DNA of 64,000 nucleotides from Pseudomonadota bacterium. GTDB taxonomy: Bacteria > Myxococcota_A > UBA796 > GCA-2862545. Position numbers and translations under genes: made by a program. Positions 29,243 to 44,795 of this stretch are shown here, in pieces; the first letter of the stretch is position 1; each line of letters opens with the position of its first letter. The stretch is from contig SXOB01000053.1 in the NCBI GenBank assembly GCA_005776945.1, positions 62,001-126,000 on the forward strand, given 5' to 3'. The notes below the pieces were generated by a model. It worked only from the letters and a program-made list of their open reading frames with translations, was not told the origin of the DNA and ran no database searches.

Positions 29243-29863
29243 GTGCTTGAAAAGGGGATGCTCGCGCTGGCCCTGTCCGGGGCCGAATGGGTCCTGTGGT
29301 TGCTCATTGCGGTGAGCGTGCTGTGCATCGCCGTCAGCCTGGAACGCTTCGTCTTCCTGTTGCGCGAGGCCACCCCAGCCGCGACCCTGCGCGCCGCCGT
29401 CGACCCCTTCTTGCAAGATGGCGACGTCGCCACGTTGCGCACGCGATTGTCGAGCGCGACGGGGATCGAGGCCCGGGTATTGGCCACGGGCCTCGAATTG
29501 GCCGGCCAGGGGCCCAAGGCGGTCGACAAGGCGTTCGCGGGCGCGGCCCTCGCGGAGAAGCTCCGCATGGAGCGCGGACTGATCGTGCTCGCGACGACGG
29601 GCTCCAATGCGCCGTTCATCGGCCTCTTCGGCACGGTGCTCGGCATCATCCAAGCCTTCCACGACCTCTCCATCGACACGGCGGGCGCCTCCGAGGCCGT
29701 CATGAGCGGCATCTCCGAGGCGTTGGTCGCCACGGCGGTGGGCCTCCTCGTCGCCATCCCGGCCGTCGTGCTCTACAACGGCTTCGCTCGCGCGGTCCGC
29801 AACCGCCTGACCCGGCTGGAGTCCATCACCACCCTCGTGGCGGCCCGCCTGGAAGGCCTCTGA
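29243..29863 (+). CDS. exbB: ExbB/TolQ/MotA-family proton channel protein
   Basis: The 206-residue inner-membrane protein has three hydrophobic segments: about 8-32, 110-135 and 150-175. It has the conserved block LATTGSNAPFIGLFGTVLGI, and GISEALVATAVGLLVAIPAV with the Thr that lines the proton path. With ExbD it converts proton motive force into movement of TonB. GTG 29243 has GGGGG 5 bases upstream; the next ATG is not better placed. It lies immediately before exbD, tonB and a receptor in one operon. Confidence 0.93.
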   Translation: MLEKGMLALALSGAEWVLWLLIAVSVLCIAVSLERFVFLLREATPAATLRAAVDPFLQDGDVATLRTRLSSATGIEARVLATGLELAGQGPKAVDKAFAGAALAEKLRMERGLIVLATTGSNAPFIGLFGTVLGIIQAFHDLSIDTAGASEAVMSGISEALVATAVGLLVAIPAVVLYNGFARAVRNRLTRLESITTLVAARLEGL

Positions 29864-29864
29864 A

Positions 29865-30296
29865 ATGGCCGGGCGGCTGGGCGGCGACGACGACCTGATC
29901 GCCGACATCAACATCACGCCCTTCGTCGACATCATTCTCGTCGTTCTCATCATCTTCATGGTGACGGCCACCGCCATCGTGCGCAGTTCGATTCAGGTGA
30001 CTCTGCCGGAGGCGGCGAGCGGCGAACAAGCCGACCAGACGAGCCTTGGCATCACGCTGACGCAAAGCGGCGAGGTCCTCCTCGACGGAGCTCCGACCGA
30101 CGCTGACGGGATCCGCGCTGCCATCGCCGGCGCCAGAGGGCGTGGCGAAGACGTCGTGTGTCTGATCGCGGCTGACCGCGGGGTGCCCTACGGGCGCGTC
30201 GTCTGGGTTCTGGACCTCGTCAAGGGCCAAGGCGTCGCCAAGTTCGCACTCCAAATCGACCAAGCGAGTGCCGTCGCCCCCGAGCCTCCTGGATGA
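29865..30296 (+). CDS. exbD: ExbD/TolR-family protein
   Basis: The 143-residue protein has one transmembrane helix (about 20-42) preceded by INITPFVDIILVVLIIFMV. This includes the essential membrane Asp (FVDI) that takes up protons. The periplasmic domain ends with VPYGRVVWVLDLVKGQGVAKFAL, as in ExbD proteins. ATG 29865 follows the exbB stop by one base, and its own stop overlaps tonB as ATGA. Confidence 0.94.
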   Translation: MAGRLGGDDDLIADINITPFVDIILVVLIIFMVTATAIVRSSIQVTLPEAASGEQADQTSLGITLTQSGEVLLDGAPTDADGIRAAIAGARGRGEDVVCLIAADRGVPYGRVVWVLDLVKGQGVAKFALQIDQASAVAPEPPG

Positions 30297-31012
30297 ACGC
30301 CAGGGCGCTGGACCCCGCTGACCGCCGCGTCGGACCTCTCGCGGCCGCCCTTCTGTTGTCCCTTTTCGCCCACCTTGGCGCGGCATCGGGTGCCGCGCGG
30401 ATACCGGAACGGCCGCCCAAGGGCCCCTCTTGGGTGGAAATGGCCGTGGTCGAACCGCCCCCGCCGCCCCCGCCGCCCCCACCGCCGGAAGCGGAGCCGC
30501 CGCCCCCACCCCCGCCCCCCCAAGCGAACGCGCCACCGCCCCCGAGCGACGCGCCTCCCCCCGACGTTCCTCCGCCGCCGCGCATCGTGCAAGGGCTGTC
30601 AGCTGGTAGCTTTGCGCCGGGATCCGGCACGGGTCTCGCCGTTCGCGCGGGGACGACCACCGCTGCTCGCGCCGAAGGCACCGGCCTCTCGCTCGACGCT
30701 CCGGCTGCCCCGACGCCTGTCGCCTGGGCGGCCCTGAGCGCCCAACCCAAGCTCCGGGCCAAACCCGCGCTCGTCGTCCCTCAAGAGGTGATCGACGCCG
30801 GCCTTGCCGGTGAGGTGGAGCTTCTCCTCGACCTCGCCGTCGACGGTCGCGTGGCCAACGTCCGCGTGGTCACGTCGCTGAGCCCGGCGGCGGACGCCGC
30901 GTGCATCGCGGCCTTGCGCTCGAGTTCCTGGAAGCCTGGCCTCGTCGACGGACGCCCGAGCCCCACGATCGGTGTCCCCTACGGCTGCAAATTCGAGAAG
31001 GTGACGCCGTGA
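30293..31012 (+). CDS. tonB: TonB energy-transducing protein
   Basis: The 239-residue protein has a short N-terminal hydrophobic anchor (about 14-32, LAAALLLSLFAHLG, with the family SLFxH arrangement). A long polyproline spacer (about 54-100, up to eleven consecutive Pro) follows. The C-terminal domain (about 150-235) has ELLLDLAVDGRVANVRV and CIAALRSSSWKPG, which matches TonB-C. The spacer spans the periplasm and the last domain pulls on receptor TonB boxes. The stop overlaps the receptor start as GTGA. Confidence 0.9.
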   Translation: MNARALDPADRRVGPLAAALLLSLFAHLGAASGAARIPERPPKGPSWVEMAVVEPPPPPPPPPPPEAEPPPPPPPPQANAPPPPSDAPPPDVPPPPRIVQGLSAGSFAPGSGTGLAVRAGTTTAARAEGTGLSLDAPAAPTPVAWAALSAQPKLRAKPALVVPQEVIDAGLAGEVELLLDLAVDGRVANVRVVTSLSPAADAACIAALRSSSWKPGLVDGRPSPTIGVPYGCKFEKVTP

Positions 31013-33666
31013 TCATCGCGCTTTGGCTGATGTTCGTCGCCCTGGCCCAAGAACCCTTGCCCCTCGTCGCGGGACCGGCGGTTCTGCAACACGTCGAGGC
31101 GCCATACCCCGAAGACGCCAAGGCCCAGGGCCTCGAGGGCACCGTCGTCCTCCTCGTCACGCTCGACGAAACGGGGGCCGTCACCGAGGTCGCCCTTTCG
31201 ACAACGAGCGGACACCCCGGCTTCGACGACGCGGCCCTCGCCGCCGTCCGTACGATGACCTTTTCGCCGGCACGAACGGCCGAGGGTCCCGTCGCCGTCT
31301 CCTTCGAATTCGCGTACGGCTTCACCTTGGAGGAGGAAGTCGAGGCAGCCCCCGCCGCGGCGGTCGTCCCTACGGTCTCCGGCCAGGTACGCACCAAGGC
31401 CACGCGTCGCCCGGTCGCCGGTGCCCAGGTCGTCGTCATCGGGTCCCCACTCACGGCAACGACCGACGAGACCGGACACTTCACCCTTACGGATCTGCCC
31501 ACCGGCGAGGTGCGCCTGCGCGTGGCGCACCAGGACCACGAGTCGGGGGACGCCACATTCGAGGCCGTCCCCGGCGAGGTCGCCGAGGCGAACATCTGGT
31601 TGGAGCCAAAGGGCTGGCGCGAAAACCAAGTGGTCGCCGTCTACGAAGGCCAGGAAACCGAGGTCACCCGCAGGACCCTGTCGATCGAAGAGATTCGGAC
31701 CATCCCAGGTACGTTCGGGGATCCCATCAAGGTGATCCAGACCCTTCCTGGCGCGGCGCGGAGCCCCTTTGGCACAGGCGCCCTCATCATTCGCGGCAGC
31801 AACCCCGAGGACAGCGGCGTCTACGTCGACGGCGTCCGGATTCCGCTGATCTACCACTTGACGGGCACGACGAGCGTCCTGAACCCCGAGATCATCGCCG
31901 CCGTCGACTACCTGCCCGGCGGCTACGGCGTACAGTACGGCCGCAGCATGGGCGGCGTGGTCGACGTCCGGACGAAGACCGAGTTCGATCCCGACGAGAA
32001 AATCAGCTGGGGCACGGACATCCTCGACTCCCAGGTGCTCTTCGAGGGCCAAGTCGGAAAAAAGGGCAAAGAGCACGGCTTCGCCATCGGCGCCCGCCGT
32101 TCCTACATCGACCTCTTCATCCCACTGTTCACCGGCGACACTGGCTACACGATCAAGCCAAGGTACTGGGACTACCAAGTCAAATGGGTGCCGCCGACGA
32201 CGGACGACCGCGACGTCGACATCTTCCTTTACGGATTCGACGACACGTTGACGTTGGGGACGCCCGACGACGTCGCCCAGGGCGACGACCAGGACACCCA
32301 AGGCGACTTCCGGACGCAGTACGACAGTCACCGCCTCGTCGGCCACTGGCGAACGCCGCTGGCGGATGGTTTCGAACTCGACCTGCGGCCGGCCATCGGC
32401 ATCGACACGTCCTACCTTGGCCTTGGCCAGGACTTCGTCATCGACAACGGCAACGTGCTGTTCGAACTCCGCGCAGAAGCGCCATGGAAGGCCACCCCAG
32501 CGGTGACCGTCGTGCCTGGCGTCGACTTCCTTGGCGCCATTTGGTGGTTCGACTTCCAGAGCAGCTTTCGCATCACGGACCTCGACGACCCCCTCGCGGA
32601 GCGAGAAGCCGTCGGTTTCGACGGGGAGGGCGGGTTCTGGTCACCGGACCCCTACCTCCGCCTCGACTTCCGACCCCTCGACGACCGCGACCGCTGGTTG
32701 ATTTCGCCCGGGCTCCGCGGCAACGTCGTGACGCTGACGACGAGCGGAACGATCACGGGTGCCGACCCCGTCCCCGCCAACACGACGACCAGCTTCGACC
32801 CCCGCCTGCTCACCCGTTTCCAAGCGAATGAGCGGCTGGCCTTCAAAGCCAGCACCGGACTCTACCATCAGCCGCCCCAACCCCAGGAAATCGTGGGCGT
32901 CGGCACCCAGAGCACCGTCGGGCACGAGCAGTCGTGGTCGACGAGCGTTGGCGCCGAGCAGCGCATCTCCGACGCAGTCCACTACGACATCGACTTGTTC
33001 TACAAGCGGATGACAGACCTCATCGTCTACGACGAGGCCTGGACCGGCTTTGGCACGAACCCCTTTGTGAACGCCGGCGAGGGGCGCGCATACGGAGCGG
33101 AGGTCATTCTCCGCCACGACCCCACCGGGCCCTTCTTTGGATGGGTGTCCTACACCTTGTCGCGCGCGTCACGCCTCGACTGGCCAACCTGCACAAGTGC
33201 CGCGGGAGAACCGCTCGCTGCACCCGCAGAGGGGCTCGATCGTCTCCTGGGCCAAGGTGATTGCTGGTACCCGTTCGACTTCGACCAGACCCACATCCTG
33301 AGCGCACAAGGCGGCCTCAAGTTGCCTCACGCCTTCCAGGTCAGCGCCCAGGTCCAGTATGTGACCGGCAACCCGACCGACCTCTACGAGGTCGGCATCT
33401 ACGACGTCGACGGCGACTTCTACAATGGCCTCTCCGTCGACGCGGCCCCAACGCGCAACCCGCCGTTTTTCCAGACCAGTGTGCGCATCGACCGGGACTG
33501 GCACTTCAAGGCGCTCAAGATGCGCACCTACGTCGACTTGATGAATGTCGTCAGGGCCGTGAACTCGGAGTTCACACTCTACAACTACGACTACAGCGAA
33601 GTCGCCTACGTCCGCGGGCTGCCGTTCATTCCGAACATCGGCGTGGAGCTTGCCCTATGGCCATGA
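31009..33666 (+). CDS. TonB-dependent outer-membrane receptor with N-terminal TonB-C-like domain
   Basis: The 885-residue product has a short signal (MIIALWLMFVALAQ). A TonB-C-like domain (about 20-105) shows YPEDAKAQGLEGTVVLLVTL and FDDAALAAVRTMTFSPAR. A carboxypeptidase-regulatory-like beta domain (about 120-200), a plug with GDPIKVIQTLPGAARSPFG and VYVDGVRIP (from about 230), and a beta barrel ending at the C-terminal aromatic Trp-Pro complete the protein. The barrel should take up a nutrient in a TonB-driven way. Having a TonB-like domain on the receptor itself is notable, although such fusions occur in Myxococcota. It is coupled to tonB and followed by a lipoprotein. Confidence 0.9.
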   Translation: MIIALWLMFVALAQEPLPLVAGPAVLQHVEAPYPEDAKAQGLEGTVVLLVTLDETGAVTEVALSTTSGHPGFDDAALAAVRTMTFSPARTAEGPVAVSFEFAYGFTLEEEVEAAPAAAVVPTVSGQVRTKATRRPVAGAQVVVIGSPLTATTDETGHFTLTDLPTGEVRLRVAHQDHESGDATFEAVPGEVAEANIWLEPKGWRENQVVAVYEGQETEVTRRTLSIEEIRTIPGTFGDPIKVIQTLPGAARSPFGTGALIIRGSNPEDSGVYVDGVRIPLIYHLTGTTSVLNPEIIAAVDYLPGGYGVQYGRSMGGVVDVRTKTEFDPDEKISWGTDILDSQVLFEGQVGKKGKEHGFAIGARRSYIDLFIPLFTGDTGYTIKPRYWDYQVKWVPPTTDDRDVDIFLYGFDDTLTLGTPDDVAQGDDQDTQGDFRTQYDSHRLVGHWRTPLADGFELDLRPAIGIDTSYLGLGQDFVIDNGNVLFELRAEAPWKATPAVTVVPGVDFLGAIWWFDFQSSFRITDLDDPLAEREAVGFDGEGGFWSPDPYLRLDFRPLDDRDRWLISPGLRGNVVTLTTSGTITGADPVPANTTTSFDPRLLTRFQANERLAFKASTGLYHQPPQPQEIVGVGTQSTVGHEQSWSTSVGAEQRISDAVHYDIDLFYKRMTDLIVYDEAWTGFGTNPFVNAGEGRAYGAEVILRHDPTGPFFGWVSYTLSRASRLDWPTCTSAAGEPLAAPAEGLDRLLGQGDCWYPFDFDQTHILSAQGGLKLPHAFQVSAQVQYVTGNPTDLYEVGIYDVDGDFYNGLSVDAAPTRNPPFFQTSVRIDRDWHFKALKMRTYVDLMNVVRAVNSEFTLYNYDYSEVAYVRGLPFIPNIGVELALWP

Positions 33667-34544
33667 CCCGACTGGCACCGCTTCTGTTCCTCACCGGATG
33701 CGTCATCGACCAGAACCAATGGTTGCGGCCGCGCGACCTCAGCCCAGTCTGGCTGGTGGATCGGCTCCGCATCCTGGCGGTCGTCGCAGAACCGCCCGAA
33801 GTTGAACCGGGGGACCTCGCGACGTTCACCGCGCTCGTCCCCGGGCCAGCGGACGTTCCCGACCAGGTCCGCATCTGGCTTGCCTGCCCACCGGTACTCG
33901 GAAGCGAAACGACGTTTGCCGCCAGCTGTTCGCTCGACCCGTCCGCGCTGAGCGACACGGCGACCGTACCCGACGGATTCATCGGCCTGGAGCCCGGCCT
34001 GCCGCCGTCCTGGCGCGTGCCGGATGACGCCCTGGATGGCCTCGCTCCCGAAGACGAGGAGGAGGGCGCGTACGCGACGATTCAGGTCATGTCCCTGCCG
34101 TCCACGGCGATCGAAGACCTTTCAGCCGACATCGACTTCACCGAGGTCGAGACGGGCACGAAGCGCCTCGTCGTTTCGCGGGCACAAACCCCCAATGCCA
34201 ACCCGTGGTTTGACGACTTTCGCGTCGAAGGCGTCTCCATTCCCGAGGGCACGACCGTCGAAGTCGACCCCAACCAGCCCTATGAGATCGAGGTCGTCCT
34301 GCCCGACGCAGCCATCGAGACCTACCTCTACGTCAACAGTCAGGGTTTCACAGAAGAGCGGATCGAGGAGCCCTACGTCGCCTGGTACGCGGACGGGGGA
34401 GAGATCGACGAGCACTTCACACTGCATCCCTATTTGCAGTCGAGCTGGGTTTCTCCAGCATCGGGGTCCGGGTCGTGGTGGGCCGTGGGTCGCGATCGGC
34501 GCGGAGGCATGACCTGGCTCGAGCGTTCCTGGACCGTCCGGTAG
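33657..34544 (+). CDS. Lipoprotein coupled to the TonB receptor
   Basis: The 295-residue product begins MAMTRLAPLLFLTGC, with the lipobox LTGC at residues 12-15. The mature part is acidic and beta-rich (for example YEIEVVLPDAAIETYLYV) with no recognised domain. Its start lies within the last codons of the receptor gene; ATG 33657 has GGAG 8 bases upstream, and a second ATG at 33663 overlaps the receptor stop. By position it may be a surface or periplasmic partner for the receptor's substrate. A 190-base gap separates it from the next module. Confidence 0.7.
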   Translation: MAMTRLAPLLFLTGCVIDQNQWLRPRDLSPVWLVDRLRILAVVAEPPEVEPGDLATFTALVPGPADVPDQVRIWLACPPVLGSETTFAASCSLDPSALSDTATVPDGFIGLEPGLPPSWRVPDDALDGLAPEDEEEGAYATIQVMSLPSTAIEDLSADIDFTEVETGTKRLVVSRAQTPNANPWFDDFRVEGVSIPEGTTVEVDPNQPYEIEVVLPDAAIETYLYVNSQGFTEERIEEPYVAWYADGGEIDEHFTLHPYLQSSWVSPASGSGSWWAVGRDRRGGMTWLERSWTVR

Positions 34545-34735: not shown

Positions 34736-35563
34736 ATGCTTCGTTTCCTTCGCGCCGCATCGCTTGCGGTCGTCGCCGCGCTGGCGCCCTCCGGGGCCGC
34801 AGCCGTCGATGACCCAGGGATCGCCGCGCTTGAACAGCAGCGCGCCGAACGCAAGCCGATGAAGGCAGTGGAGAACCGGTTCTTCCTCAAGCAGGACCGA
34901 TTCGAGGTCGCGCCCGCCTTCGGCTACGTCCCCAACAATCCGATGGCCCGCCGCTTCACCGGCGAGATCAACTTCGGGTACCACTTCGCTGAGAACCTCT
35001 CCGCGCAAGCACAGATCGGCTTCAGCCCCGACCTCGGCGAAAACGACCTCAAGGGTCTGCCGTCGGTGCTGTTGCAGCGCGCCTACGACGCGTCTTCGGC
35101 CAACGCCGCCGCCTTCCAGCAGCCCTTGGACAAAGTGGTGCTAGGCGCGAACTTCGGCGTCGCTTGGGCCCCGCTCTACGGCAAGATCAACTTGGTCGGC
35201 GAGACCGTCCTGAACTTCGACTTCTACGGCTTCGCCGGCCTCGGAATGGTCTCGAAGCAGAACTACGTCGCGACCTACGACGTCGGTGTGGACATCACCC
35301 AGCCCGGCGCCGACATCGTTCTGCTGACGAAGCAGGGCAACGAAGTCAAACCCAGCCCAGCCTTGGGCGTCGGCATGAACTTCTTCGTGAACCAGACCGT
35401 CGCCCTCAAGCTCGACGCCCGGTCCGCCCTCTACATCGACAAGAAGCCGCAATACGACGCCAATGTTCCGGTGTCCGAACAGCGGCTGTACAACAACTTC
35501 ACCGCCACGGTGGGCGCAGGCTTCTTCTTCCCGAAGATGAAGTCCCGCCTCTACAGCTACTAG
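34736..35563 (+). CDS. Outer-membrane beta-barrel, Glt/Nfs A/B type
   Basis: The 275-residue product has a signal peptide (cut near Ala-Ala-Ala at residues 21-23). A short charged linker leads to NRFFLKQDRFEVAPAFGYVPN, the conserved entry of the myxobacterial outer-membrane barrel family that includes GltA/GltB and NfsA/NfsB. Alternating aromatic strands end with Tyr-Ser-Tyr, a typical barrel terminus. ATG 34736 has GGAG 8 bases upstream. It is followed by a paralogous barrel 10 bases downstream and then the C-D-E-like genes. It probably forms the outer-membrane ring of an envelope machine. Confidence 0.8.
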   Translation: MLRFLRAASLAVVAALAPSGAAAVDDPGIAALEQQRAERKPMKAVENRFFLKQDRFEVAPAFGYVPNNPMARRFTGEINFGYHFAENLSAQAQIGFSPDLGENDLKGLPSVLLQRAYDASSANAAAFQQPLDKVVLGANFGVAWAPLYGKINLVGETVLNFDFYGFAGLGMVSKQNYVATYDVGVDITQPGADIVLLTKQGNEVKPSPALGVGMNFFVNQTVALKLDARSALYIDKKPQYDANVPVSEQRLYNNFTATVGAGFFFPKMKSRLYSY

Positions 35564-35573
35564 GAGCCGCTCG

Positions 35574-36398
35574 ATGCGCTCGTTGCACGCACGCCGCATG
35601 TTGCGGCCCGCCGCGGCACTTGTGGCGTCCCTCTGGGCCGCCTCGCCGGCTGTCGCCCAGGACGATGACCTGGACGACATCCTTTCAGGGGACACCGATC
35701 CTGAGGACAGCCTGCGCGAAGAGCGCCGCGCCGTCCAGGACGGCGAGCTCGACGCGAAGGCTCCGGCCGACCGCGAGCGGCCAACGATCTTGACGCTGCA
35801 GCGCAAGACCTTCATGAAGATCAATCGCTACGAGGCCGGGCCCCACCTCGGATTCGTGACGAACGACCCATTCTTGTCGGTCTACATGGCGGGTGGCAGC
35901 TTCGCCTACCATGTGACCGAGGTCTTCGGCGTCGAGGTGAGCGCCACCTACGCGCCCTTCGTCGTCCGCAAGCCGATCACGGTCCAGATCGTCGAAGAGA
36001 ACCAGGTCACGCCTGACATCTCGAAGATCCAGTTCCTCGCCAATGCGTCTGCGCAGTACTCGCCCGTCTACGGCAAGGTCGCGATGGGCCAGAACGGCAT
36101 CATCATGTTCGACCTCTTCGGGACGTTTGGCACCGGCTTCGTCAACACGAACGACGACCTCGAAGCCCTGCAGGCCGAAGGCGAAGAATTCGCTGTTGCC
36201 ACCGATGCCCAATTCCATCCTACGCTCAATTACGGAGGCGGCTTCCGGGTCATCTTCAACGAAGGCCTGGCCGTTCGCATCGAAGCGCGCGGGATGTCCT
36301 ACGTGGAGACCTTGGAAAGCACGACTCTGGAGATGAAGAACAACATGATCCTCCAGGCGTCAGCCTCGTTCTTCTTTCCCGGCATGAAGCAGGAGTGA
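35574..36398 (+). CDS. Outer-membrane beta-barrel, Glt/Nfs A/B type (second copy)
   Basis: The 274-residue paralog of the preceding barrel has a signal peptide cut after AVA (about residue 27). A long acidic segment (DDDLDDILSGDTD) follows, then the family entry FMKINRYEAGPHLGFVTNDP, and YHVTEVFGVEVSATYAP. The last strand ends SASFFFPGMKQE. The acidic N-terminal segment is absent from its neighbour and might bind calcium or partner proteins. GGAG lies 8 bases before ATG 35574. Two unlike barrels in tandem match the A/B pair of the gliding and spore-coat systems. Confidence 0.8.
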   Translation: MRSLHARRMLRPAAALVASLWAASPAVAQDDDLDDILSGDTDPEDSLREERRAVQDGELDAKAPADRERPTILTLQRKTFMKINRYEAGPHLGFVTNDPFLSVYMAGGSFAYHVTEVFGVEVSATYAPFVVRKPITVQIVEENQVTPDISKIQFLANASAQYSPVYGKVAMGQNGIIMFDLFGTFGTGFVNTNDDLEALQAEGEEFAVATDAQFHPTLNYGGGFRVIFNEGLAVRIEARGMSYVETLESTTLEMKNNMILQASASFFFPGMKQE

Positions 36399-36402
36399 CC
36401 CC

Positions 36403-38238
36403 GTGAAGACGTACACTCCCTGGTGGATCGCACTCAGTCTGGTCGCGCCAAGCACGGCCTTCGCGCTGTCCTGTGACGAGATCATGCAGATGGTCGGCGC
36501 CAACGTCCCGCCCGAGGTCGTGGTCGCCACGATGCAGGGGTCGGGCCAGAAGTTCTCCGCCGCCGACGTCAGCTGCCTCGCCAGCCGTTCAGCGCCTCCT
36601 GCCGTGCTCGAAGCGGCCAAGGCCATGGGCGCGCCAGCCGCGGCCCCCGTCGCCCTCCCCTCCCCGACGGCGGCTCCGGCCGCGGTCGACGATGAGCGCG
36701 ACCTCCCCGCTCGCCCCACGGCCTCAGACCCAAGTGAGGCCCTGACGGGCACGGCGTCTGATTTCGAGGAGCCCTCCGGCAGCGGTCCTCAGGAGGTCGA
36801 AGCCCTCATCGAGGCGTACCGCGCAGGTAAGTTCCTGACGTCGTCCAAGGGTCTTTACGACCTGCTCGCAGCGGACAAGTATCCCGACCAGCGGACCCGG
36901 ATTCAGCACTACCTTGGCAAGTCGCTCTACGACCTCGGGATGCTGCAGTCTGCCCAATTCTACTTCATGGAAGTCGTGCGCAAGGGCCCGTCGAACCCGT
37001 ACTTCAAGTACGCGCTGCCCTGGCTCGTCAAAATCAGCACGACCACGGGCAACGACTACGAACTTCTGCGCGTCGTCAAGCAGATCTCCCCGGACGCCTT
37101 CCCCCGCGAAGCGCGCAATCAGATCTACTACCTGCTCGGTCGCAAGAACTACGAAGAGGACAAGCTCTCGGAGGCCTCCGGCTTCTTTCAGCAGGTCTCC
37201 GAGAAGTCCGACCTCTACATGCGCGCGCGATTCTTTGACGGCGTCATCTCGGCCGAGCGCGACAAGTTCAAGACGGCCGCCCAGGCCTTTAGCGACGTCG
37301 TGCAGGCCAAGCCGGCGGTGGCCACCGAGGAAGAGGCCGCGCAGCTCGAAGACATGCGCGACCTCGCCCTGATGAACATCGCTCGAATCTACTACCAGCT
37401 CGAGCGCTTCGACACGTCGATCGAACACTACAAGATGGTCGATCGCAACAGCACCTACTGGGCGCAAAGCCTCTTCGAACGCGCCTGGGCGACCTTCATC
37501 GCGCAGGAACTCAACCAGACACTTGGCCTCCTGCTCACGGTCGAGAGCCCGTACTTCAACGAACGCGAGTTCCTCCCTGAGGTCACCATCCTCCGGGCGT
37601 TGACCTACTTCAACCTCTGCAACTACGACGAAGTCGAGGCCATTCTCATCGACTTCGACGACCGGTTCAAGCCGCAAGCGGCGGAGTTGGAGGCCTTCCT
37701 CGATCAGTACAAGTCCGACCAGGGCCAGGAGCTTGCCGACCAGGCCTTCGACGCATGGTTCGTCCAGGGCAAGAAGGACAGCACCCTCGAACCCGCCATG
37801 TTCGCGCGACTTTTGCGGAACCGCGAGCTCTCGTCCCTTGTCCGCTCCTTGGACATGATGGACGAGGAGTTGGCCTTGATCGACGCTCAGAAGTCCGTCT
37901 GGAAGGACACCGTCGGCGACGAGCTCAAGCGCGTCCTCGAGGGAGACCGTTTGCGCTACAAGAAGAAGGGCGGCCGCGTCCTGCTTCAAGAGTTGCTTGG
38001 TCAGTACCGCTCCCTCAAGGACCTGCTCATCCAGAGCGAGGTCGTGCGCTTCGAAGTCGTCGATGCGCAGCGGCAAGACTACGAGTTCAAGATGCAGAAT
38101 CCCGAGGTCGGCGCACTGGACGCTGCCCGCGTGGACTTCGCGACGTCTCCTGAGTTCATCTACTGGCCGTTCAACGGCGAATTCTGGCGCGACGAGCTGG
38201 GGTACTACGAGTACGCCGAGCACGGTCGCTGCAAGTAG
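36403..38238 (+). CDS. GltC/NfsC-like periplasmic TPR-type protein
   Basis: The 611-residue product has a signal peptide (cut after AFA at about residue 21) and a small Cys-containing N-terminal domain (about 22-65). A Pro/Ala/Asp linker follows, then a long helical repeat region (about 130-560) with TPR-like hairpins such as LYDLGMLQSAQFYFMEV and NIARIYYQLERFDTSIEHY. Length, layout and place after two A/B barrels fit GltC/NfsC. GTG 36403 has AGGAG 7 bases upstream. It probably links the barrels to the large D-like TPR protein in the periplasm. Assignment rests on architecture and order, not on a database search. Confidence 0.75.
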   Translation: MKTYTPWWIALSLVAPSTAFALSCDEIMQMVGANVPPEVVVATMQGSGQKFSAADVSCLASRSAPPAVLEAAKAMGAPAAAPVALPSPTAAPAAVDDERDLPARPTASDPSEALTGTASDFEEPSGSGPQEVEALIEAYRAGKFLTSSKGLYDLLAADKYPDQRTRIQHYLGKSLYDLGMLQSAQFYFMEVVRKGPSNPYFKYALPWLVKISTTTGNDYELLRVVKQISPDAFPREARNQIYYLLGRKNYEEDKLSEASGFFQQVSEKSDLYMRARFFDGVISAERDKFKTAAQAFSDVVQAKPAVATEEEAAQLEDMRDLALMNIARIYYQLERFDTSIEHYKMVDRNSTYWAQSLFERAWATFIAQELNQTLGLLLTVESPYFNEREFLPEVTILRALTYFNLCNYDEVEAILIDFDDRFKPQAAELEAFLDQYKSDQGQELADQAFDAWFVQGKKDSTLEPAMFARLLRNRELSSLVRSLDMMDEELALIDAQKSVWKDTVGDELKRVLEGDRLRYKKKGGRVLLQELLGQYRSLKDLLIQSEVVRFEVVDAQRQDYEFKMQNPEVGALDAARVDFATSPEFIYWPFNGEFWRDELGYYEYAEHGRCK

Positions 38239-38246
38239 GGGCCCCG

Positions 38247-41200
38247 ATGCGCACCGATACGATTCGAATCCTCCCTGTCGCGCTCGCGCTCGCGCTCGCG
38301 TCCATCGCGCCGTCGGCTTTCGCCGCCGACGCCAAGGACGAAGAACGCCGCGTCATGAGCGCGCGCCAGGTCGACACCACGGCCAACGTCTCTGAAGAGA
38401 TGGCCAAGATCGCGGAGTCGAAGCGCCTTGAGGCCATCTCGCGCCTCAAGGACCTCCTCGGCAAGGGCGTCGAGGGCGACCAAAAGGCGGAGATGATGCT
38501 CCGCCTCGCCGACCTCTACTTCCAACAAGGGCGCTTTCTCTACCTCAAAGAGATGGCGACGTTCGACGTGGCCTACGACAAGTGTTTCAACACGGAAGGC
38601 TGCGACACGGACAAGCTGAAGGCGGACAATGCCGGCTCCCGTGAATGGCAGGAAAAGTCGATCCGGCTCTACGAAAATATCCTGACGAATTACCCGCGCT
38701 ACGCGCGCGCCGACCAAGCTACCTTCTTCCTCGGCAGCGCGCTGCAGGACGTCGGCCGCCGCGAAGATTCCGTCGAAGCGTTCAAGAAGCTCGTCAAGCT
38801 CTACCAAGATTCGTCGTACGTTCCCGACGCCTACGTGCTCATCGGCGAGTATTACTTCGAGACGAACAACGCCTACGCGGCCTTGCGCGCCTACCTGAAG
38901 GCCACGTCGTTCACGGCCAGCGAGAAGTACCCCTTCGCGATGTACAAGCTCGCGTGGTGCTACTACAACGTTGGCGACTACACCTCGGCCATCGATACGA
39001 TGAAGACGGTCGTCTCGTACGGCCAAGGCATGACGGCCGAACAGAAGAAGGGCGTCAACCTCGAGGACGAGGCGCTCAAGGACCTCGTACGATTCTTCGC
39101 TGACGCCGGCGCGATGAACGACGCCTACGAGTACTTTACCAAGCTCGGCAAGAAGGACCTCATCCAGGCCATGTTGGCCCGGTTGGCGACCACCTACTAC
39201 GAACAGGGCAAGTTCGACCAAGCGATCGAGACGTATCGCCGATTGATCGCCGAAGATCCGAACGGGGCGAAATGCCCGGACTACCAGGGCGAAATCATCA
39301 ACGCCTTCCGCAAGATGGGTCAGCGCGACCGCACGCTGGAGGAAATCGATCGCCTCCTCCGCGACTACGGCAAGACCAGCGCCTGGGCGCGCACGAACGC
39401 GTCGAATCCCAATGTGGTCGCCGACGCCACACGCCGCATCGAGGAAAACCTGCGTCGCGCCGCCGTGGAATACCACAACGAGGCGAAGACGCTCGAAAAG
39501 GGCCGCCACAAAGACGCGGGACCGACCTACCAACTCGCTCGGCAGGCCTACGCCAGCTACCTCAACGAGTTCGCCAAGGACGAGCACGCCTACGACGTCC
39601 GCTACGCCTACGGCGAACTCCTTTACCACCTCAAGGACTTCAAGGGCGCGTACGACCAGTACATGAACGTGGTCGATATCAACCCCACGGGCAAGTACAG
39701 CAAGTTCTGCGCTGAGGCGGCCATTTTCGCCGCCGAGGAGCAGGTCAAGCTCGAGGGCGGTGGCGACGCGTCCGGCAAAGTAACGGCGAGCGCGAAGGAC
39801 TCCAAGAAGGAGGCGCTGCCGCTCACAGACTGGGAGCAGAAGCTCGTCGACGCCTGTCGTAAGTACGCGGAGTTGTTCCCCAACGACACCAAGGTTCGGA
39901 ACGTCATCTACAAGTCCGCCTACTTGTTGTACAACAAGTACCGCTTCGAAGACGCCGCCACGCAGTTCCGCGTCGTCATCAAGATGGAACCGTCATCAAA
40001 GGAAGCGGAAACTGCAGCCGAGCTCATCCTGGACTCGTTCGTCATCCGTGAGGATTGGAAGAACCTCAAGGAGAACGCCAAGTTCTACTACGACCAAGAG
40101 GGTCTCGGCAGCGCGAAGTTCAAGACGGAGACCTACGGCGTCTACCAGCGCTCGTCCTTCAAGCTCATCGAGACGGAATTCGACAAGGACAAGGACAAGG
40201 GCAAGGCCGCCGACGCCTTCGTCGCGTTCTACGGCGAGTTCCCCGAGGCCGACACGGCCGCCCAGGCCCTGAACAACGCATCGATCTACTACTACGACAC
40301 GAGCCGCCTGGCCGACGCCATGAAGGTTCGCCACATCCTCATCGACGACCCGAAATTCGGCCCGAAGGTCAAGTACTACTACGACCAAATCGGCGCTTTG
40401 GGCTACGATTACGAGTCCATCGCGAATTTCGAACGCTCGGCCTTCTACTACGAGAAGCTCTGGGCCCTGTTCCCAGAGGAATCGAAGAAGCTCGGCAAAG
40501 ACAAGCCGGACGAATTGGCGAAAATGTCCGGAAAGGCTGCGGACGCCATCTACTCGGCGGCTGTGTTCCGCAATGCCATGGGTGAGTGGGAAGCGGCGAT
40601 CGCGAACTACGGGCAGTTCATCACAGCCTTCGCGAGCGACCCGCGGTCGACCGAGACCAAGATCACGATCGCGCGCATCTACGAGGATCACGGGCGTCCC
40701 GATGAGGCCGGCGCCGCGTTCATGGCCTTCTACACGAAGCCGCCCGCAGGTGCGCCCGAGGAGTTGCTCTACTTCTCCCGCTTGCACCACGGACGCGTGC
40801 TCACCGCCGACGGCGAGAAGGCGAAGGCCGACAAGCTGTACGCGGACACGGTCGCGATGTGGAAGAAGGCTGGCCAGCCCAAGGGCCCGCCGACTGAGTT
40901 CGTCGCCGAGATGATGTATGTCCTGGCCCAGCCCACACTCGGCAAGTACATGGAGCTCAAGATCAAGGGCGCGGGCAAGGCCGCGGGTAAGAAGGCCGAG
41001 GACAAGGCCCTCATCGACAGCCTGGGCGCCAAGTCCAAGGCGTTGCTTGGCACACAGGTCGCATTCACCGAAATCGTTGGCACCGGCGCCGGCGAGTGGG
41101 GTCTCGCGAGCTTGGTCGCCCTCGGCAAGGCGTATGAGAACATGGCCGACACGCTGCGTACGGGCGCCGTCCCCTTCTACCTGACGGACGATCAAATCGA

Positions 41201-41441
41201 GATCTACCAGATGGGCATCGAAGACAAAGCCTATACCCAGATTGAAAAGGCCGTCGAAGCCTACAAGCTCGCCCTGGAGAAGAGCTTCGAGCTCACGCTC
41301 TACAACGAGAACACCGCCTACGCGACACGCCAGCTCGGCGTCCTTCGGCCCCAGGAATACCCCGGCCTCAACGAGGTTCTCGTCGAGGGGCGGTACACCA
41401 GCCAGAAAGTTCGCAACTTCGAACCCGAGCAGGGCCTGTGA
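38247..41441 (+). CDS. GltD/AgmU (NfsD)-like large periplasmic TPR protein
   Basis: The 1064-residue product has a signal peptide cut after AFA (about residue 27). Most of the rest is tetratricopeptide-type helical pairs, for example RADQATFFLGSALQDVGRRE, KLAWCYYNVGDYTSAI and RYAYGELLYHLKDFKGAYDQ. Such size, export and TPR density match GltD (AgmU), the periplasmic scaffold of the Myxococcus gliding machine, and its NfsD paralog. Tyr and Lys are unusually frequent, with many YYY and YYFE runs. It starts 9 bases after the C-like gene and is followed by the E-like lipoprotein. Confidence 0.8.
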   Translation: MRTDTIRILPVALALALASIAPSAFAADAKDEERRVMSARQVDTTANVSEEMAKIAESKRLEAISRLKDLLGKGVEGDQKAEMMLRLADLYFQQGRFLYLKEMATFDVAYDKCFNTEGCDTDKLKADNAGSREWQEKSIRLYENILTNYPRYARADQATFFLGSALQDVGRREDSVEAFKKLVKLYQDSSYVPDAYVLIGEYYFETNNAYAALRAYLKATSFTASEKYPFAMYKLAWCYYNVGDYTSAIDTMKTVVSYGQGMTAEQKKGVNLEDEALKDLVRFFADAGAMNDAYEYFTKLGKKDLIQAMLARLATTYYEQGKFDQAIETYRRLIAEDPNGAKCPDYQGEIINAFRKMGQRDRTLEEIDRLLRDYGKTSAWARTNASNPNVVADATRRIEENLRRAAVEYHNEAKTLEKGRHKDAGPTYQLARQAYASYLNEFAKDEHAYDVRYAYGELLYHLKDFKGAYDQYMNVVDINPTGKYSKFCAEAAIFAAEEQVKLEGGGDASGKVTASAKDSKKEALPLTDWEQKLVDACRKYAELFPNDTKVRNVIYKSAYLLYNKYRFEDAATQFRVVIKMEPSSKEAETAAELILDSFVIREDWKNLKENAKFYYDQEGLGSAKFKTETYGVYQRSSFKLIETEFDKDKDKGKAADAFVAFYGEFPEADTAAQALNNASIYYYDTSRLADAMKVRHILIDDPKFGPKVKYYYDQIGALGYDYESIANFERSAFYYEKLWALFPEESKKLGKDKPDELAKMSGKAADAIYSAAVFRNAMGEWEAAIANYGQFITAFASDPRSTETKITIARIYEDHGRPDEAGAAFMAFYTKPPAGAPEELLYFSRLHHGRVLTADGEKAKADKLYADTVAMWKKAGQPKGPPTEFVAEMMYVLAQPTLGKYMELKIKGAGKAAGKKAEDKALIDSLGAKSKALLGTQVAFTEIVGTGAGEWGLASLVALGKAYENMADTLRTGAVPFYLTDDQIEIYQMGIEDKAYTQIEKAVEAYKLALEKSFELTLYNENTAYATRQLGVLRPQEYPGLNEVLVEGRYTSQKVRNFEPEQGL

Positions 41442-41452
41442 GGACCTCGACC

Positions 41453-43030
41453 ATGCGCACTGCCATCCTCCTGACCTTCCTCGCCGCCTGCGGCGAGAAG
41501 AAGCCGGCGGAGCCCGCCGCCGACCTCACGACGAACCCGGCCGCCAATTTCCAGGCCGGGCTCAACGTGCTGAATTCGCCCGACAAGAAGACGGGCAAGG
41601 TCGACTACACCACGGCGTACAACTACTTCAATGCGTCGGCGAACCTACAAGGTGGCGCCAAGGCGCATTTCAACGCCGGTTGGACCGCCGAGAAGCTCGA
41701 CGACCTGCCGGGCGCCGAGAAGCACTACGCGGAAGCGTTCAAGCTCGACCCAACCTATCAGCCCGCCATGTTTTCCTACGCCCGCGTGCTCGGCGACCAG
41801 GGCAAGGGCGCTCAGGCGGTCGACGTGTACAAGGGCTACGTCGAGAAGAATCCGAAGGATTACGAAGTTCGGAACGACTACATCGGCGCACTGGTCAAGG
41901 CCAAGCTCCACGAAGCCGCCCAGGCCGAAGCCGAAGAAATCCTCCGCCACGATCCGAAGAATGCCGGCGTGTACCGCAACCTCAGCGCAATGTACTACGA
42001 CCAGGGCAACTACGGCATGAGCGCCCTCTGCGCCGAAAAGGCGCTCCAGCTCAACCCCGGCGACATCGGCACCTACAACAACCTCGGCGTGACGATGCTC
42101 CAGCAGGGCAACGAGGCCGCGGCGATCGACAAGTTCAAGACGGCGCTCAAGCTCCAGTCGAACAACTTCGAAGCAAACATGAATATGGGTTGGGTCGCCG
42201 TGAACTCCGGCGACTACAAGCTGGCCGACGCCTCCTTCACCGCGGCCCTGACCCAAGACTCGCGCAACCTCGACGCCCGCATGGGCCTTGCGATCGCGAA
42301 GCGCGGTCTCGCCGACTACAAAGCGTCGGGCGAGCTCTACGACGAGATCATCGCAGGTGACAAGGACAACAAGGCCGCCTTCAACAACGCTGCCGTCCTC
42401 AACGAGTACTACACGAAGGACTTCGTCAAAGCGACAAAGTACCTCCAAGCCTACATCGACGCGCACCCCAACCAGATCGCGCCGACCGACGAGATCTTCG
42501 CCCACATGGAGCGCATCCGTCAGCTTCAGGTCGAAGAGGAGGAGCGCAAGCGCCAAGAGGCCGAGCGCAAGCGCCTCGAAGAGGAGCGCAAGCGCCGCAA
42601 CGAGGAGACGCTCAAGGAAATCGCGACGATCACGGCCGCTGCACAAGCCAAGCTCACCGCGAACACCGCATGCATCGACCCGTACATGGCCGAAGAGTTG
42701 GCCATCGTCTTCGAGCAGGCCCAGCAGATCGTCGACGCGGAAGAAGCCGACATGGCGCCGGACATCAAGACGCTGCTCGACGGCTACATTCCGCAGCTCG
42801 ACGAGGCCGTGGCCGCCATGTGCACCGGTGCACCGCCACCCGCCCCGGAGGGTACGCCTCCTGCCGACGGCGAGACTCCGGCCGAAGGCACACCACCCGT
42901 CGAAGGCACCCCGCCTGCCGAAGGCACCCCGCCCGCCGACGCAGCTCCTACCGGCACACCGCCAGCTGACGGCACCCCGACGGACGCCCCCGAGGCCCCC
43001 CCCGTCGAGGCTCCGCCCGGCCAACCCTGA
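41453..43030 (+). CDS. GltE/AglT (NfsE)-like TPR lipoprotein
   Basis: The 525-residue product begins MRTAILLTFLAACGEKK with lipobox LAAC. Tandem TPRs fill about residues 55-350 (for example NLGVTMLQQGNEAAAIDKFK). A highly charged helix (about 362-390, repeated ERKR-type sequence) follows. After that comes a Cys-containing segment and a Pro/Glu/Gly/Thr tail from about 460. Size, lipid anchor and TPRs match GltE (AglT). ATG 41453 is preferred; a GTG at 41438 overlapping the previous stop is possible and would add five residues before the signal. The tail encodes an 18-base repeat. Confidence 0.8.
   Translation: MRTAILLTFLAACGEKKPAEPAADLTTNPAANFQAGLNVLNSPDKKTGKVDYTTAYNYFNASANLQGGAKAHFNAGWTAEKLDDLPGAEKHYAEAFKLDPTYQPAMFSYARVLGDQGKGAQAVDVYKGYVEKNPKDYEVRNDYIGALVKAKLHEAAQAEAEEILRHDPKNAGVYRNLSAMYYDQGNYGMSALCAEKALQLNPGDIGTYNNLGVTMLQQGNEAAAIDKFKTALKLQSNNFEANMNMGWVAVNSGDYKLADASFTAALTQDSRNLDARMGLAIAKRGLADYKASGELYDEIIAGDKDNKAAFNNAAVLNEYYTKDFVKATKYLQAYIDAHPNQIAPTDEIFAHMERIRQLQVEEEERKRQEAERKRLEEERKRRNEETLKEIATITAAAQAKLTANTACIDPYMAEELAIVFEQAQQIVDAEEADMAPDIKTLLDGYIPQLDEAVAAMCTGAPPPAPEGTPPADGETPAEGTPPVEGTPPAEGTPPADAAPTGTPPADGTPTDAPEAPPVEAPPGQP
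42881..42934 (+). repeat. 18-bp tandem repeat in the tail of the GltE-like lipoprotein
   Basis: Three near-perfect 18-base units encode EGTPPA/V repeats, with degenerate copies on both sides. The unit keeps the frame, so tail length may vary between strains. The encoded Pro-rich tail could span or contact the cell wall. Confidence 0.8.
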
Positions 43031-43070
43031 CCTGAACGGCCGCTCGTCGGCCCCAACCTGAGAGGGACAC

Positions 43071-43328
43071 ATGCGTACCTTAGGAATGCTGCTCGCCATG
43101 GCCATGGCCGCGCCGGCCTCCGCACAGGAGACCGACGATTCGGGTCGCCAGATCAAGTACAAAGAGCGCACGGAAATCGACTTCGAAGGGCTCGATGTCA
43201 CCGGCGAGCTCGTCAAGCCGGCCGGGCAGTTGCTGCTCGACCGCCGCAAGGCAAACTTCAATCCGCTCATCCGGATGCGTGAGAACTTCACGGCCGAGAT
43301 GAAGCAGTCGGTAGACGAGGTCAAGTAG
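43071..43328 (+). CDS. Short exported protein in the F position of the Glt/Nfs-like block
   Basis: The 85-residue product has a signal peptide cut after ASA (residue 18), leaving about 67 charged residues with TEIDFEGLDVTGELVKPAG, LLLDRRKANFNPLIRMR and a C-terminal helix. There are no Cys. GAGAGGGA precedes ATG 43071. The length is small, but export, codon use and tight placement between the E-like lipoprotein and the third barrel argue that it is real. It occupies the place of GltF/NfsF; I cannot confirm homology by eye. Confidence 0.75.
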   Translation: MRTLGMLLAMAMAAPASAQETDDSGRQIKYKERTEIDFEGLDVTGELVKPAGQLLLDRRKANFNPLIRMRENFTAEMKQSVDEVK

Positions 43329-43352
43329 GCGCTTCGCGCCCCAGGAGACCCC

Positions 43353-44030
43353 ATGGTGACGGTAGGAACGTTGTGGCTGGCACTGGCCGGCAACGCACAA
43401 GATCTCGACGAAAGTGACGGCAAGAAGGCGCGCGAGAACGCCGCGGCCGCCGCCGAACAAGAGATCACGCGCGAAGTCGTCCGCGGCTACTTCCTGAAGT
43501 CAAATATCGGCGTGACGAACTACCTCGGCACCGCCGGGGTACCGACGAGCGGCGTCATCGCCCTCAGTCTTGGCGTCGGAAGTGACTTCATCGACAAGGA
43601 GCGCATCAGCGCGTCTTGGGAAGTCGACCTCCAGCAGGCGCTGATCAACGGTCCGCGGTCCGACGAAATTTCGTTGTACCCACCCGTCATTCAGGGCGAC
43701 CTTCACGTCTTCAACCTTCTCGTGACGGCCGAGGTCAGCACCTACCTGACACGCCGCTTCGGGCTCGGCCTGCGGGGCGGCGGCGGCCTTTCCATCATCC
43801 CTCTGCTGATGGGAGCCGAGGGCTACCAGGAGAACCTGGTCGACGGCGTCTGGGGCGGCGTCCCCGCTCTGGTGCACGAGGGCCCACTGCCCATCGTACT
43901 CGTCAGTCCGACCATCGAGTATTACACGAAGCTCTCGCACTTCTCGGTGGGCGCGGAGGCTGACGTCTCCTACACGATCGGTTGGGACCTTGGCGTCACG
44001 CCGACCGGCTACCTCAAGTACACGTTCTAG
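43353..44030 (+). CDS. Third outer-membrane barrel (GltH/NfsH- or CglE-like)
   Basis: The 225-residue product has a short signal-like start (MVTVGTLWLALAGNAQ) and a charged Ala/Glu helix. About ten amphipathic beta strands begin at EVVRGYFLKSNIGVTNYLG and end at the aromatic C-terminus (YLKYTF). It is distinct from the two A/B barrels. AGGAG lies 5 bases before ATG 43353. It closes the block that starts at 34736. Candidates are the GltH/NfsH barrel or the motility protein CglE; a profile search is needed to decide. Confidence 0.7.
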   Translation: MVTVGTLWLALAGNAQDLDESDGKKARENAAAAAEQEITREVVRGYFLKSNIGVTNYLGTAGVPTSGVIALSLGVGSDFIDKERISASWEVDLQQALINGPRSDEISLYPPVIQGDLHVFNLLVTAEVSTYLTRRFGLGLRGGGGLSIIPLLMGAEGYQENLVDGVWGGVPALVHEGPLPIVLVSPTIEYYTKLSHFSVGAEADVSYTIGWDLGVTPTGYLKYTF

Positions 44031-44132: not shown

Positions 44133-44795
44133 ATGAAGCGCACGCCCCTCGGCCTCTTCGGCCGGAAGCTGGGAATGACCCAACTCTTCGAGGCGGACGG
44201 CACTGTGGTGCCCGTGACCGTCCTTGAGGTCGCCCCCAACTCCATCCTGCGCGTCAAGACGGCCGAAGGCAAGGACGGCTACAACGCCCTCCAAGTCGCG
44301 TACGGCACGCAGAAGGCCCACCGGCTGACCCGCGCACGCCTGGGCCAGTTCAAGGGTGTCCCTGCCCTCGAGGAGTCGCCGGCGCGCCACATTGGCGAAA
44401 TTCGCTTCGCCGATGCACCCGCCGGCTACGAAGCTGGCCAGACCATCGCCGTTGGCGACGTGTTCGAAGCGGGCAAGCGCGTTGACGTCACCGGCACAAG
44501 CAAGGGCAAGGGCTTCGCCGGCGTCATGAAGCGCCACCACTTCGCGGGTTTCGAGCGCAGCCACGGTGTGCACGAGTACTTCCGCCACGGCGGTTCGATC
44601 GGTACCCGCCTGACGCCCGGCCACACCTTCAAGGGCAAGCGAATGGGCGGCCACATGGGCGATGAGCGGGTGACGATCCAGAATCTCGTCATCGCCAAGA
44701 TCGACGCGGATCGGAACCTCCTCTTCGTCCGCGGCGCCGTTCCCGGCCGCAACGACGCCATGATCTTCGTGCGTCGCGCGATCAAGGACGTCTAG
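44133..44795 (+). CDS. rplC: 50S ribosomal protein L3
   Basis: The 220-residue protein opens with LGLFGRKLGMTQLFEADG, the N-terminal L3 signature. It has KGKGFAGVMKRHHFAG, then RHGGSIGTRLTPG and FKGKRMGGHMG, the loop that reaches the peptidyl-transferase centre, and RNLLFVRGAVPG near the end. GGAGG precedes ATG 44133. Unusually, neither rpsJ nor rplD flanks it. It sits alone between the Glt/Nfs-like block and acetoacetyl-CoA synthetase, while rpoA-rplQ lie 19 kb away at the right edge. Whether it is the only copy cannot be told from this window. Confidence 0.96.
   Translation: MKRTPLGLFGRKLGMTQLFEADGTVVPVTVLEVAPNSILRVKTAEGKDGYNALQVAYGTQKAHRLTRARLGQFKGVPALEESPARHIGEIRFADAPAGYEAGQTIAVGDVFEAGKRVDVTGTSKGKGFAGVMKRHHFAGFERSHGVHEYFRHGGSIGTRLTPGHTFKGKRMGGHMGDERVTIQNLVIAKIDADRNLLFVRGAVPGRNDAMIFVRRAIKDV

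Follow-up and report, generated by a model that had tools for sequence, protein, structure and literature searches.

The window, by which we mean the whole stretch of 64,000 nucleotides analysed, carries at positions 34736-44030 seven co-directional genes for exported products on the + strand, with their open reading frames checked in the sequence. They are listed here in gene order together with their immediate context.

29243-34544, + strand: ExbB, ExbD, TonB, TonB-dependent receptor and lipoprotein genes, context upstream of the block (family models)
34736-35563, + strand: gltA/nfsA-like outer-membrane barrel, 275 aa (OMP_myx_plus 93.3 bits, cut-off 60; hhalign probability against Myxococcaceae nfs-type A 99.4)
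35574-36398, + strand: gltB/nfsB-like outer-membrane barrel, 274 aa (OMP_myx_plus 105.2 bits, cut-off 60; hhalign against nfs-type B 98.5)
36403-38238, + strand: gltC/nfsC-like TPR protein, 611 aa, GTG start (NF033756 264 bits, cut-off 450; hhalign 100, E = 6e-45)
38247-41441, + strand: gltD/nfsD-like TPR protein, 1064 aa (hhalign against nfs-type D 100, E = 6e-105, 978 columns; against GltD E = 4e-92)
41453-43030, + strand: gltE/nfsE-like TPR lipoprotein, 525 aa (NF033758 102 bits, cut-off 225; hhalign 100, E = 3e-42)
43071-43328, + strand: gltF/nfsF (CglF)-like small exported protein, 85 aa (NF033764 58.6 bits, cut-off 90; hhalign 99.4)
43329-43352, no strand: 24-base gap, the site of gltG in most relatives (from their gltF-gltG-gltH order)
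43353-44030, + strand: gltH/nfsH (CglE)-like barrel, 225 aa (NF033755 93.7 bits, above the cut-off of 70; hhalign 97.5)
44133-44795, + strand: orphan rplC (ribosomal protein L3), context; a conserved cluster neighbour that is missing from the S10 operon on the same contig

The first-pass annotation had given the same positions, strand and lengths for the seven products. It had spaced the genes 8 to 40 bases apart, of which the upper figure is right; the gaps are 10, 4, 8, 11, 40 and 24 bases in order, the smallest being 4. By eye, the N-termini look like signal peptides, and the 525-residue protein has the lipobox LAAC. All seven reading frames are intact and compact, and rplC starts 102 bases after the gltH-like gene. 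Scanning the block for promoters and terminators gave nothing above chance.

Comparison with the NCBIfam models yielded scores above cut-off for both OMP_myx_plus barrels and for CglE/GltH. The scores of GltC, GltE and CglF/GltF are all under the equivalog cut-offs, and no NCBIfam model names the 1064-residue protein. The names A and B were assigned by gene order, each barrel also matching the profile of the other. Order-level alignments were further compared with Myxococcaceae alignments by hhalign. Against the nfs-type loci, A to H gave probabilities of 97.5-100, with G (probability 100) represented by a copy on contig C12 of this genome and by the cluster copies of relatives, and two pairings used as negative controls gave 12 and 4. 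The comparison with glt covered D to H, which matched the GltD-H profiles with probabilities of 95.7-100 and were outscored by the nfs-type match every time; A to C were assigned to Glt by family model. The nfs-type loci were picked by matching their gene content, order and lengths to the published table (A 294, B 442, C 512, D 1202, G 682 and H 200; PMC2875238), not via the M. xanthus accession. In these loci A, B and G are called shorter, at 246-280, 359-372 and 603-618 aa, perhaps as a result of start choice. The assignment of the seven-gene block, with genes A, B, C, D, E, F and H, to a predicted envelope machine of the Nfs/Glt type is well supported, and at the level of sequence the match is far beyond chance. 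Family models, hhalign and synteny across the order uphold the earlier proposal of a Glt/Nfs-like machine in nfs-like order, and the C-, D- and E-like proteins, on which that proposal had been made to depend, are clearly similar to their counterparts by profile-profile comparison (E-values above).

The synteny survey of relatives, also proposed with the annotation, showed this gene order to be conserved throughout the order; in most same-order relatives it is A-B-C-D-E-F-G-H, the nfs order. All 58 sampled genomes of the order contain a GltC match at E ≤ 1e-6, and 53 of them a close GltC orthologue (E ≤ 2.1e-84). The other five, all incomplete drafts, yielded paralogue-level GltC matches only, and in two of these gltG-gltH-rplC sits at a contig end. 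The congener retains the same seven genes, its GltC being 72% identical. Relatives in the genome-contig scan include Deltaproteobacteria bacterium UBA796 and lake or marine MAGs. PMC11937823 lists UBA796 as an uncultured class of Myxococcota and PMC11821767 gives it the rank of order; we infer the order name for the window genome. Judged from the sampled genomes, the cluster is a general feature of an uncultured order of Myxococcota, MAG UBA796 among its members, and the block is a new, order-wide member of an already known machine family. In two sister-genus genomes a GltF-like gene lies on the opposite strand just past gltH (L358 8920-9174, L359 7452-7736). Five public MAG records of this lineage (L149, L164, L170, L184 and L188) bear the title 'Klebsiella pneumoniae', evidently a wrong label.

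GltG, GltI and GltJ had been reported as absent, and none of them is encoded in the block, nor is GltK. The gene for GltG is found elsewhere in the genome. Contig C12 carries an intact gltG of 633 aa with an FHA domain and an AgmX/PglI tail; it was found via the model of that tail and scores 309 bits with NF033760 (cut-off 650) and 111 bits with myxo_SS_tail. Among the 18 first-sampled clusters that extend beyond gltF, 16 have gltG right after it, followed by gltH where the contig continues, except once where a second GltG-like gene intervenes. The C12 gene groups with the gltG genes of two relatives, G008 and G017 (99 SH-aLRT, quick tree), amid the family's cluster-encoded gltG genes, and the clusters of both relatives likewise lack gltG between gltF and gltH. 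The same MFS-transporter gene (69-76% identity) lies beside gltG in all three genomes, and the C12 gltG is 57-66% identical to its displaced counterparts. A nuo operon is near the C12 gltG; in G008, NADH-dehydrogenase-like genes lie upstream of gltG. As C12 gltG groups with the G008 and G017 genes and shares their MFS neighbour, the gene was displaced from the cluster, not lost. A single displacement in the common ancestor of the three genomes would be the simplest account. Displacement may have occurred more than once, since the G009 cluster also lacks gltG, and in the congener of G009, G018, gltG adjoins pheS-pheT-like genes. The intact C12 gltG, together with the gene order and tree of the relatives, rules out a minimal machine without GltG, so that the earlier description of the block as a minimal form does not stand.

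Some relatives carry additional GltG-like genes within the cluster, at either the gltE-gltF or the gltG-gltH junction (L073 10970-12058, L074 10798-12234, L075 10916-12082, L231 8829-10289; L085 13561-14991, L366 11303-12835). A GltG-like gene on G001:C50, which forms a long branch near extra paralogues, was not accepted as that genome's displaced copy of gltG.

The genome-wide search for gltG/gltJ, mglA and aglRQS, also put forward with the annotation, thus recovered gltG; GltJ, a true MglA and a motor of the AglRQS clade were not found. The genome of the window is 90.5% complete, and these absences are therefore provisional. For GltJ, eight genomes of the order gave tail matches only, whereas complete GltJ was recovered from three Myxococcaceae controls. 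The best MglA match of this genome shares 27% identity and is without the P-loop lysine; 8 of 29 genomes of the order have an MglA 45-50% identical to the query, an approximate probe sequence. An MglA-like protein of 368 aa without the P-loop lysine is encoded at L335 4414-5520 (G000:C68).

Triples of the TolQR type resembling R-Q-S are present on contigs C3, C30 and C81, none of them linked to the block. In the motor tree no triple of this genome falls in the AglRQS clade; the C30 triple clusters with a second Myxococcaceae triple (100/100), away from the one assigned as AglRQS, an assignment made from gene lengths. C81 holds a separate core-type set, C-D-E-F-R-Q-S-G, with F weak (L016 5755-18398, G000:C81). 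In the first of its two ExbD-like proteins, N replaces the channel D of the others, and an ExbD-like protein of C3 (L034 9228-10013) has a C-terminal tail of the AgmX/PglI type. Contig C49 carries in a row a lipoprotein with a MIDAS motif, an OMP_myx barrel and a GltC-like gene (L014 15739-19001 and L015 1-284). The same trio was found in all eight relatives examined. The C49 lipoprotein, a candidate for a CglB-type adhesin, matches a Bdellovibrio adhesin model weakly, at 21 bits, and has no Pfam match.

Compared with the Nfs system of M. xanthus (nfsA-H, MXAN_3371-3378), the window machine has the full set of eight components, as judged from the profiles, an identical gene order and, likewise, no GltJ. 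It differs in having gltG on another contig and TonB-receptor genes upstream, and its identity with Nfs in D, E and G is 24-32%. With the Glt system of M. xanthus (GltA-K with AglRQS) it shares D to H by profile and A to C by family model; here GltJ, the AglRQS-clade motor and a true MglA are missing and the genes form one cluster, not two. The Glt/Agl core complex of gamma- and deltaproteobacteria (Luciano 2011) has similar C, D, E and GltG-like proteins. The C81 set, with its R-Q-S genes, is of that kind, whereas the window block differs by its barrels A, B and H, by F and by having no linked motor; the two D proteins are only 20% identical. A Bdellovibrionota-type cluster on a Pseudobdellovibrionaceae contig (L201) has the order A-B-C-D-F-G, with R-Q-S motor genes directly after G, where none is linked here.

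The neighbouring rplC bears on the ancestry of the locus. This gene is not present in the S10 operon (L333 12205-13153), which lies at the end of the block's contig and has a gap of 10 bases between rpsJ and rplD; rplC lies alone beside gltH. It is found downstream of the cluster in many relatives of the order and in one relative of the class. A lone rplC, apart from other ribosomal genes, also lies near the Myxococcaceae nfs-type operon, upstream there, in 11 of 12 loci, the contig of the twelfth being too short to show it. There is no rplC at either true glt locus examined (L272, L334). Because rplC adjoins both the order cluster and the Myxococcaceae nfs-type loci and is missing at the two glt loci, this distribution suggests that the nfs-type locus, not glt, is in the older position; a D+E+G tree left the placement of nfs versus glt undecided (supports 0.19 and 29.9). 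A tentative extension, conceivable though in our view doubtful, is that the rplC-side cluster is the ancestral Nfs/Glt locus, an order-wide envelope transporter independent of MglA and GltJ, of which the Myxococcaceae glt set would be a derived duplicate.

In the published model, a TolQR-type motor contacts GltG, and force is passed to periplasmic TPR proteins and outer-membrane barrels (PMC3169522, PMC3858216). The predicted products here fit that architecture. The block would supply the outer-membrane and periplasmic part of the machine, which GltG from the displaced C12 gene would complete. A TolQR-type proton motor encoded elsewhere, with the C81 or C30 triples as candidates, would push on the TonB-like GltG. 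The force would run via C, D and E, the TPR proteins of the periplasm, and the small protein F to the barrels A, B and H, which would move material at the cell surface. Such action would more likely be non-polarised surface transport, as by Nfs on spores, rather than directed gliding. On balance we think it probable that the block and the C12 GltG form an envelope machine with a distant TolQR-type motor, which is likelier to be a non-polarised surface transporter than a gliding engine. The observations behind this reading are gene content, family membership, order-wide synteny, the displacement of gltG and the absence of GltJ; assembly, motor partner, cargo and function are inferred from them. 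The non-gliding, Nfs-like role is favoured by the lack of GltJ, of a true MglA and of an AglRQS-clade motor, and the earlier remark that the machine is possibly non-gliding is plausible on the same grounds. The conserved MIDAS trio, which could serve gliding, the presence of MglA in some relatives and the lack of a block-linked motor speak against this reading.

The MIDAS lipoprotein, barrel and GltC-like gene, conserved in the order and present in 8/8 relatives, keep gliding under consideration. A genuine gliding engine would combine A-H including GltG with the C81 or C30 motor and the C49 MIDAS adhesin and work without GltJ, as suggested for Bdellovibrio. Motor triples do exist in the genome, AglRQS with GltA-G marks a potential glider in the speculation of Luciano et al., and gliding Bdellovibrio lacks GltH, I, J and K (PMC3169522). 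We nevertheless consider such an engine unlikely: it would have no GltJ, no true MglA here or in most of the relatives sampled and no motor in the AglRQS clade, and its MIDAS protein is only weakly like the named adhesin family and has no Pfam match. The motor could instead be the ExbB-ExbD pair of the window (29243-30296), coupling the machine to the upstream TonB receptor system. The cluster is preceded by ExbB, ExbD, receptor and lipoprotein genes here and in the class relatives L197 and L198, and by receptor and lipoprotein genes in most genomes of the order; GltG has a TonB-like tail. This is improbable, given that the pair has only one ExbD, next to its own TonB and receptor, the usual partners of such a pair, and that no such neighbour is seen at the nfs-type loci of Myxococcaceae. 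The single ExbD beside TonB and receptor also led us to reject the pair as AglRQS. The genes from ExbB to the lipoprotein are conserved neighbours and candidate members of the machine. That the block is a decaying remnant left after loss of gltG, as its empty usual place might indicate, is hardly credible: none of the seven frames is broken and the genes are tightly packed, the congener has retained the whole set of seven, and the intact C12 gltG shares 57-66% identity with the displaced copies.

The C12 gene shows that absence from an operon is not evidence of a minimal machine unless the whole genome has been searched. Which came first, the sporulation or the gliding machine, was left open by Luciano et al. 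(PMC3169522). An order with the full A-H set, without GltJ and mostly without MglA, provides an outgroup for this question.
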